Shown here in pieces: positions 558-3,151 of a DNA stretch of 22,025 nt; the first letter of the stretch is position 1, and each line of letters begins with the position of its first letter. A model generated the notes under the pieces. That model was not told the origin of the DNA and searched no databases. It saw only the letters and a list, made by a program, of their open reading frames with translations. The stretch is from a virus, in the IMG/VR virus record IMGVR_UViG_3300035698_001856, positions 1 through 22,025 of that record; one strand, written 5' to 3'. A program made the translations under genes and the position numbers.

Positions 558-719
558 CTACCCTACTATGCCCTTGTTCTTTTTGATGTAGTCAGAAATA
601 GCAGCCTCAAGTGCTTCAGGAACCTTTTTGCCACAAAGAATACCGGTAGCCCTGAATACTTCCCACAACCGCTTATCTACTTTTATTACCTGATTAGTGA
701 GCTTGTTTTTTATTGTCAT
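558..719 (-). CDS. Ribbon-helix-helix (CopG/Arc-like) DNA-binding protein, probable early repressor
   Basis: A 53-residue protein: a short basic N-terminus (MTIKNKLTNQVIKVDKRLW) that could form the DNA-contacting beta strand, followed by two predicted helices (about residues 17-27 and 33-47, EALEAAISDYIKK). The size and the VDKRLW-to-AISDYIKK pattern match RHH repressors, which bind inverted repeats as dimers of dimers. The start at 719 has a GAGGGG Shine-Dalgarno 4 nt upstream. The frame extends to a TTG at 782, but that TTG is part of the -35 box of its own promoter, so it cannot be the start. It is the first gene of the leftward transcript and lies next to the inverted repeat at 777-801, as expected for an autoregulated repressor. 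No homologue search was possible. Confidence 0.65.
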   Translation of the reverse strand: MTIKNKLTNQVIKVDKRLWEVFRATGILCGKKVPEALEAAISDYIKKNKGIVG

Positions 720-753
720 GTTCCCCTCATTGTTTAATTTAACTGTTGATTTA

Positions 754-782
754 ATACTACCCCAAACTTTTTTTCGTGTCAA
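754..782 (-). promoter_or_regulatory. Sigma70-type promoter for the leftward cassette
   Basis: On the minus strand a perfect -35 TTGACA (782 to 777) is followed after exactly 17 nt by TAGTAT (759 to 754), one mismatch from consensus. Transcription would start near 747, leaving a leader of about 28 nt before the ATG at 719. The -35 box lies inside the left arm of the inverted repeat at 777-801, so a protein bound there would block it. Confidence 0.75.
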
Positions 783-815
783 GTACTTTTTTTACTTGAC
801 AGCATAACTTTTTTT
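766..815. repeat. Three phased ACTTTTTTT tracts in the divergent control region
   Basis: Three copies of ACTTTTTTT, each with seven T, lie at 766-774, 785-793 and 807-815. Start-to-start spacing is 19 and 22 bp, close to two turns of B-DNA. A/T tracts in helical phase are a known cause of intrinsic DNA bending. The middle copy sits in the centre of the inverted repeat and the outer two lie in the spacers of the two divergent promoters. Bending or a direct-repeat binding site is an inference. Confidence 0.6.
777..801. promoter_or_regulatory. Operator-like perfect inverted repeat between divergent promoters
   Basis: TGTCAAGTA (777-785) and TACTTGACA (793-801) are exact reverse complements separated by 7 bp. 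Each arm contains a TTGACA -35 box, one for each strand. The adjacent RHH-like gene is the natural candidate to bind it. The symmetry extends further: AGTATTA occurs at 821-827 on the plus strand and at 758-752 on the minus strand, about equally far from the centre. Confidence 0.75.
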
Positions 816-825
816 ATGGGAGTAT
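796..825 (+). promoter_or_regulatory. Promoter for the rightward early operon
   Basis: A perfect TTGACA (796-801) lies in the right arm of the inverted repeat. The best -10 candidate is GAGTAT (820-825) after an 18-nt spacer; it shares AGTATTA with the -10 region of the leftward promoter. The -10 is weaker than that of the leftward promoter, so the exact start is uncertain. The leader to the first clear gene at 951 would be about 120 nt. A 6-bp stem (AAGAGA 889-894, TCTCTT 902-907) is the only structure noticed there; no U-run follows it. Confidence 0.55.
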
Positions 826-950
826 TACATCAAGGCATCACAAATCGATCCTGAAACGGATAAAACGATCACTGAACATGCCGAGTAAAAGAGACTCTAT
901 ATCTCTTATTGATTTCCCGAATTACTTAACCTTTATTAGAGAGTACAAAC

Positions 951-1205
951 ATGAATGAAGCCATGCCAGCAAAACGCCCAAAGCATTTAGAGCTTAACGC
1001 AGCTATTTGCGAAATTGACAACCTGTCAGAACGTATCCAGTCTTTGCTGTCAAAAATCAATGGCCCGCGACCTATAGCGGATGAAACAGAAAACTCTGAT
1101 GAACCGACGCTGTCTGATGTTCTTACCTTCAGCGTTGATAAAATCAGGTCACGTCTTGAAAGCATGCATCATATGGTTGGCGAAATCGAAGCTGCTCTTT
1201 TTTAA
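951..1205 (+). CDS. First gene of the early operon, unknown function (84 aa)
   Basis: An acidic, probably helical protein beginning MNEAMPAKRPKHLELNAAI. Two amphipathic stretches (about residues 10-37 and 55-83) could form a coiled coil. No Cys cluster, membrane segment or recognised domain. It is first after the rightward early promoter, a position often held by small host-takeover or regulatory proteins, but no function can be assigned. The Shine-Dalgarno is weak (AGAG about 9 nt upstream). A second in-frame ATG at 963 is possible. Confidence 0.65.
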   Translation: MNEAMPAKRPKHLELNAAICEIDNLSERIQSLLSKINGPRPIADETENSDEPTLSDVLTFSVDKIRSRLESMHHMVGEIEAALF

Positions 1206-2215: not shown

Positions 2216-2568
2216 TCAATCTCGGGATAGAGGCTCAACGGTGGATGATGGTGCTTAAAGTCCTTCCGTATCGTAACCTGATATCGGTGCTGGATAGCAT
2301 GACGGGGCATGAAATGGCGATAATCTGCACGTATTATGCTGCAAGTGTTGACTTTGAGTCTGTCAGAGTCCGGACCGCTTTTCAGATGACTTTAGGATGG
2401 AAGCTACGGTTCATAATGGTACTATTACACGACATGCTACACTATGCAAGCAGTGTATCCGGAACCGTTTTTAATCCATCCTCTATCGCCTGGAAGTCAA
2501 TCAAGCACTTTGAGCGTAACCTCAAATTTTACCACAACATTATCAGGAGGCATTATGTCACTGCTTGA
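2212..2568 (+). CDS. Unknown early protein (118 aa)
   Basis: Start at 2212 overlaps the previous stop (ATGA) and has CGGGGAAA just upstream; the frame is open further left only through the preceding gene. The protein begins MINLGIEAQRWMMVLKVLP and is mostly alpha-helical and rather hydrophobic (MAIICTYYAASV, FIMVLLHDMLHYASS), with a basic C-terminus (FERNLKFYHNIIRRH). Weak membrane association is possible. No family recognised. Its 3' end overlaps the annealing protein gene by 14 nt and contains that gene's AGGAGG. Confidence 0.6.
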   Translation: MINLGIEAQRWMMVLKVLPYRNLISVLDSMTGHEMAIICTYYAASVDFESVRVRTAFQMTLGWKLRFIMVLLHDMLHYASSVSGTVFNPSSIAWKSIKHFERNLKFYHNIIRRHYVTA

Positions 2569-3151
2569 GATTCAGACAGAGTTAAAAGCGCCGAAGAGGC
2601 AGAACAACGATTTCGGTGGCTACAAATACCGGAACTGTGAAGATATACTGGAAGCGGTTAAGCCTCTTCTGAAGAAACACAATTGCAGATTGACTATTAC
2701 TGATTCAATAGTTGAGGTTGGCGGTCGGGTTTACGTTGAGGCGACTGTTAGAATTATCTGGAAAGAAAGCGATGCAGATGGGTCAGTATCAGAGACAGTC
2801 AAGGCATACGCAAGGGAGCCTGAGTCAAAGAAAGGAATGGACGAAAGTCAGATCACCGGGGCTGCATCTTCATATGCTCGAAAATACGCCTTAAACGGTC
2901 TTTTCCTGATAGATGATACCAAGGATGCAGACAATCAGGACAATTCAACGTCAGGTGCCAGCAATCAACAGCAGAAGCCAAAAGCTGAAGACGGTGGAGC
3001 AATGAACGCTGATGATTGCCTTGTATGTTACGAAGCGTGGAATGGCAAGTTGTATAAAGGCAACACGATCTATTGGAATAACAAGAAATACTCCCTTTCA
3101 GATAAGCAAGCCGACTGGTTTAAAGCTCAGTCTAAATTCAAAGAATCTTAA
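2555..3151 (+). CDS. erf: Erf-family single-strand annealing protein
   Basis: A 198-residue protein with the hallmarks of the phage Erf/ERF family: an N-terminal core with FGGYKYRNCEDILEAVKPLL (residues about 20-40) and the signature QITGAASSYARKYALNGLF with DDTKDAD (about 98-125). After a Gln/Ser-rich linker comes a short aromatic, basic tail (about 155-198). ERF proteins anneal complementary single strands in phage homologous recombination and can circularise or repair phage DNA. The start at 2555 is fixed by a perfect AGGAGG 4 nt upstream. P22 Erf is of similar size (about 200 residues). The coiled-coil gene and the NinB-like gene that follow fit a recombination module. Confident at family level. 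Confidence 0.9.
   Translation: MSLLEIQTELKAPKRQNNDFGGYKYRNCEDILEAVKPLLKKHNCRLTITDSIVEVGGRVYVEATVRIIWKESDADGSVSETVKAYAREPESKKGMDESQITGAASSYARKYALNGLFLIDDTKDADNQDNSTSGASNQQQKPKAEDGGAMNADDCLVCYEAWNGKLYKGNTIYWNNKKYSLSDKQADWFKAQSKFKES

Follow-up and report, generated by a model that had tools for sequence, protein, structure and literature searches.

Mirrored -35 boxes in a probable back-to-back promoter pair between the opposite transcription units of an uncultured P22-like podovirus

Known divergent arrangements and the present locus

Compact regions from which transcription departs in two directions have been described in several forms. In the immI region of phage P22 (arc, mnt, ant), tightly packed opposing promoters lie beside a gene annotated as encoding a 53-aa ribbon-helix-helix (RHH) protein, Pant and Pmnt overlap each other, and both Arc and Mnt have annotated operators. 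Prokaryotic bidirectional promoters, which were studied in E. coli, use a -10 region common to both directions, and their sequence symmetry results in divergent transcription and potential competition between polymerases (Warman et al., PMC12825309). A further form can be found in the Erf-carrying Vibrio podoviruses 1.211, 1.183, 41E34.2 and 24E30.2, where a leftward gene of 51-54 aa is followed by a divergent region of 125-145 bp, with back-to-back promoter-like sites and A-tracts, and then by the Erf operon. Thalassomonas phage BA3 has, opposite its Erf operon, a gene for a Cro/CI-type HTH protein (PF13443, E 7e-9), which supports the view that the small gene at this place often is a regulator.

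The window investigated here is the whole of the 22,025-base IMG/VR contig IMGVR_UViG_3300035698_001856, which derives from an uncultured P22-like virus of bacteria. Its divergent region resembles P22 immI in having tightly packed opposing promoters beside a gene for a 53-aa protein, although the RHH nature of this protein as well as its operator are only putative, and the promoters stand back to back instead of overlapping. In contrast to the bidirectional promoters of E. coli, separate -35 boxes are mirrored, the predicted starts lie about 85 bp apart, and each direction has a -10 box of its own (754-759 and 820-825). The small leftward gene, the divergent region with A-tracts and the rightward Erf operon are shared with the four Erf-carrying Vibrio podoviruses, whose small proteins, however, have no detectable homology to that of the window. 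The perfect repeat at the -35 boxes is absent from the divergent regions of these relatives; the conservation check proposed in an earlier note on this DNA thus found the layout, and not the palindrome, to be conserved. The region is a further example of a known divergent arrangement and causes little surprise. The conserved layout of small gene, divergent promoters and Erf operon marks a place where early regulators of marine podoviruses could be sought.

Genomic setting

The P22-type virion genes (head closure Hc3, DNA transfer protein) are oriented leftward at 13.2-22 kb, and the operon with Erf, NinB and primase-helicase runs rightward from about 951. The 231-bp intergenic region 720-950 is the point of divergence between the leftward 53-aa gene and this operon, being flanked by 558-719(-) and 951-1205(+), and both transcription units probably begin here. 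The features are collected in Table 1. Counted from the predicted start, the leftward leader comprises 28 nt, with GAGGGG located 3 nt ahead of the ATG at 719. A 26-codon ORF, MPSKRDSISLIDFPNYLTFIREYKHE (878-958), runs into the beginning of the gene at 951-1205; it may be a leader peptide or a chance occurrence. The leftmost partial ORF gave no match to a known enzyme.

Table 1. Coordinates of features in the divergent region and of related elements in other phages
Feature	Position	Strand	Basis
53-aa gene at the head of leftward transcription, product possibly RHH; start codon ATG 719-717	558..719	-	ORF; leader CAACAGTTAAATTAAACAATGAGGGGAACATG; no family match
GAGGGG ribosome-binding site of the 53-aa gene	723..728	-	sequence
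AGTATTAAATCAA, left copy of mirrored -10/start segment	746..758	-	motif search and mirror alignment
Leftward predicted transcription start, A	747..747	-	inferred, -10 box + 7 nt
Leftward -10 box TAGTAT, spacer 17	754..759	-	consensus scan; rank 3 of 43,970 positions
ACTTTTTTT tract 1, within leftward spacer	766..774	+	sequence count
Leftward extended -35 box TACTTGACA, left arm of inverted repeat	777..785	-	repeat search, promoter scoring
ACTTTTTTT tract 2, between both -35 boxes; complement AAAAAAGTA directly upstream of leftward CTTGACA	785..793	+	sequence count
7-bp centre of inverted repeat, CTTTTTT	786..792	.	sequence
Rightward extended -35 box TACTTGACA, right arm of inverted repeat	793..801	+	repeat search, promoter scoring
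ACTTTTTTT tract 3, within rightward spacer	807..815	+	sequence count
Rightward -10 box GAGTAT, weak, spacer 18, TGn ahead	820..825	+	rank 63 of 43,970; under threshold of stricter consensus scan
AGTATTACATCAA, right copy of mirrored -10/start segment	821..833	+	motif search and mirror alignment
Rightward predicted transcription start, A	832..832	+	inferred, -10 box + 7 nt
First gene of notable length in the rightward unit; Erf (about 2558-3151), NinB and primase/helicase lie further along it	951..1205	+	ORF list, family searches
Loci of TGTCAAGTAAATTTACTTGACA phages	L136 1833, 3718, 4915; L196 3640, 5805; L198 1303
51-56-aa RHH-looking genes in other phages	L217 27207-27377; L216 29139-29303; L219 1489-1644

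Two promoters back to back

All motifs named in the earlier note were found where it had placed them: TGTCAAGTA (777-785) and TACTTGACA (793-801) each occur once in the window, TAATACT (752-758) and AGTATTA (821-827) are present, and the only three copies of ACTTTTTTT in the window begin at 766, 785 and 807 (steps of 19 and 22). The two TTGACA boxes lie in one short AT-rich stretch and face outwards, with a -10 box at 16-18 bp on both strands and the -35 boxes on the inside. On the left, TTGACA-17-TAGTAT matches the consensus in 10 of 12 positions; on the right, TTGACA-18-GAGTAT matches in 9 of 12, with only three of six in the -10 box. Among the divergent promoter pairs of the window, this one scores best and is the sole pair with TTGACA on both sides.

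With a probability of roughly 0.7, we read the region as a back-to-back pair of sigma-70-type promoters used by the host RNA polymerase, situated between the opposite units of a P22-like podovirus. The claim of two divergent promoters in the earlier note is backed by the divergent genes, the box spacing, the placement of the ribosome-binding site, the synteny and the fact that other phages have the core again, flanked on either side by -10 boxes. Judged by the motifs, the leftward promoter appears strong and the rightward one weaker; the former would serve the 53-aa gene with the genes downstream, and the latter, with its TGn, the Erf/replication operon. Against this reading it should be noted that the rightward GAGTAT is a poor -10 box, which the consensus scan missed, and that the segment AGTATTAnATCAA common to both starts does not follow the sigma-70 consensus and may be bound by a regulator.

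The inverted repeat would exist because both promoters carry the identical extended -35 box TACTTGACA, with the hexamers 13 bp apart. The central T-tract coincides with the place expected for the alpha-CTD of either polymerase and is probably a shared UP-like element; its reverse complement, AAAAAAGTA, one base ahead of TTGACA, fits AAAAAARNR, the consensus of the proximal UP element. If standard footprints (-55 to +20) are drawn from the predicted starts (747 and 832), both would include 777-802, so that the polymerases probably compete and firing may tend to go one way at a time.

Symmetry, chance levels and the mirrored start segments

The mirror symmetry described in the earlier note is real, with the centres of the inner and the outer dyads (789 and 789.5) half a base off; the three T-tracts, listed there with the mirror-symmetric region, are direct repeats outside the mirror. 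A perfect repeat with 9-bp arms and a loop of at most 12 occurs only once in the 22-kb window; since each of 20 dinucleotide shuffles of the whole window held 0-5 such repeats, the arm length alone is unremarkable. When the 231-bp intergenic region was shuffled, a 9-bp repeat appeared in 1.4%, two TTGACA on any strand in 1.5% and three A/T7 runs in 0.3% of the shuffles, and three copies of ACTTTTTTT in none of 5,000.

The outer match exceeds the one first noticed: AGTATTAnATCAA is present at 746-758(-) and 821-833(+) at matching distances, and the gapped mirror alignment scores highest here of the whole window, the full mirrored segment being TACTTGACA ... AGTATTAnATCAA on both strands. The predicted starts A747 and A832 have the common context ATCAA. 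The mirrored AGTATTAnATCAA segments around the starts could be sites of a regulator, the -35 palindrome being mere promoter sequence. Their 12 matching positions at mirrored places, unequalled by any other copy in the window, are consistent with this. We regard it as quite unlikely: the same pattern could equally derive from two promoters made from one by inverted duplication, and within-pair promoter similarity is not generally raised in other phages, the window reaching the 90th percentile of between-site scores. That divergent pairs generally arise by inverted duplication was rejected, within-pair similarity not being raised. As the motif of a phage-specific promoter, AGTATTAnATCAA has no further good copies elsewhere in the window. 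A near-repeat, TGTTTAATTTAAC / TGTTGATTTAATAC, covers the leftward start region and leader (731-757), where it could offer the 53-aa protein a tandem operator.

The 53-aa protein and the operator question

In the earlier note, both promoters shared one 25-bp operator, and an RHH-like gene stood next door; the inverted repeat is what was observed, and calling it an operator is that note's interpretation. The 53-aa protein indeed shows an RHH-like pattern by eye, has the same length as P22 Arc and lies in a plausible position; its RHH character was left unconfirmed by Pfam, PHROGs, NCBIfam, a PDB sequence search and an AlphaFold2 model. No RHH profile or PDB sequence matched in these databases, BLASTP returned no match, no homologues were found in GenBank phages, and a search of IMG/VR for close relatives of this protein and of the primase found none. 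The single-sequence AlphaFold2 model, of low confidence (pLDDT 69), consists of two helices without a strand, and a fold search with it listed only unrelated helical pairs and no RHH among them. Small proteins of 51-56 aa that look RHH-like and have no Pfam RHH match are also encoded next to divergent early regions in phages of Pseudoalteromonas and Vibrio (Table 1).

Repression by the product of the neighbouring 53-aa gene is possible. If the 25-bp inverted repeat were the operator of a dimeric repressor, for which this product would be the simplest candidate, binding would cover both -35 boxes and shut both promoters. The perfect 9-bp arms overlapping both boxes would suit such a site, as would the position of the small first gene, which is kept in relatives where its product is likewise RHH-like by eye; an ungapped fit to the equally long P22 Arc beats 99.98% of shuffles (p about 0.0002), in that single register only. 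Gapped and local comparisons with Arc or Mnt, however, were not significant, the protein has neither a family nor a fold match, the distance between half-sites varies in an analogous lineage (7-23 bp among its homologous sites), and the palindrome is missing from same-layout relatives which carry the small gene. The last two points speak against one common operator, and we hold it to be unlikely. Its fuller form, in which an Arc-sized repressor on the -35 palindrome controls both arms from one dimer site and polymerase competition makes the choice exclusive, would amount to a minimal directional switch of a lytic phage, conserved in layout and not in sequence across Erf-carrying podoviruses; this seems rather improbable.

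Predicted curvature

The earlier note had also expected bent DNA from the three phased T-tracts. Bending was predicted with two wedge models, whose phased and unphased controls behaved as expected. The phasing vector sum of the A-tracts is 2.5-2.7 of 3, and a modest bend is obtained for 756-826, about 75 and 49 degrees in the two models, compared with over 150 degrees for a perfectly phased control. Could statically bent DNA be the working part of a switch? Three T7 tracts at steps of 19 and 22 bp point that way, as does a predicted bend that ranks at the 97th-98th percentile within the window. Stronger curvature is predicted elsewhere in the window, however, and in 13-31% of trials an equal bend resulted when these tracts were placed at random. 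A modest bend is what remains of the expectation, with phasing no better than random, and a bend-based switch is very unlikely.

The core palindrome in other phages

The promoter pair gains from the recurrence of its core. TGTCAAGTA-N7-TACTTGACA has nine matches in IMG/VR, as against 0 and 0 for two control palindromes of identical dinucleotide content. A widespread bacterial operator was rejected as an explanation, six genome matches in 257 Gb being about chance. The IMG/VR scan was extended to TGTCAAGTA-N-TACTTGACA with gaps of 0-24, all counts being lower bounds; a good -10 box had to reach a strict score threshold of 6 at 16-18 bp, and expectations were taken from shuffled flanks. Among the at least 112 non-identical sites listed, at least 21 have a -10 box on one side (expected 6.2) and at least 22 on both sides (expected 0.1), the latter not being independent, as most come from one terminase-linked lineage. 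The window is a weak member of this two-sided class, its own boxes (scores of 4.2 and 0.9) lying under the threshold of the count, which also weighs against the promoter pair.

Many of the two-sided sites listed sit directly upstream of one terminase-small-like family (L004, L010, L111, L113, L116, L122, L164, L185, L186, L199). As in the window, the -35 boxes TACTTGACA stand back to back, with two-sided -10 boxes at 16-18 bp. The closest among the matches listed, L004 and L010, differ from the window by one base in the 25-bp core and have TTGACA-17-TATAAT and TTGACA-17-TATACT. Unlike in the window, the -10 boxes of this lineage are near consensus, and the gap between half-sites ranges from 7 to 23 bp among the sites listed; two promoters therefore fit better than a fixed dimer operator. 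Since no protein common to these phages and the window could be detected, the lineage should be seen as an analogy and not as homology. The compact divergent arrangement recurs in many phages, and the region therefore looks like an ordinary start point for both arms of the phage genome and not like a new kind of switch. Pairs of TACTTGACA can serve to flag divergent promoters in phage genomes. In P26218, DSL-LC05, H6/1, BT-1011 and SL25, no mirrored TTGACA/TTGACA was present among the top pairs.

Matches with gaps of 12 or 4 mostly are without -10 boxes and represent something else. TGTCAAGTA-N12-TACTTGACA is found in many contigs (L103, L131, L161, L171, L184) without -10 boxes and in partly coding-like sequence, a different class of repeat. 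Phages of about 160 kb contain three copies of TGTCAAGTAAATTTACTTGACA adjoining a repeated TTTTAGGATC and in most cases also AATTCTTTTTAAAATGTTGTTGAC; this is a regulatory element repeated at dispersed sites (Table 1). L105 has the palindrome twice (9058 and 9197, 139 bp apart), and a long inverted repeat at position 114 of L106 reaches 19 bp past the core.
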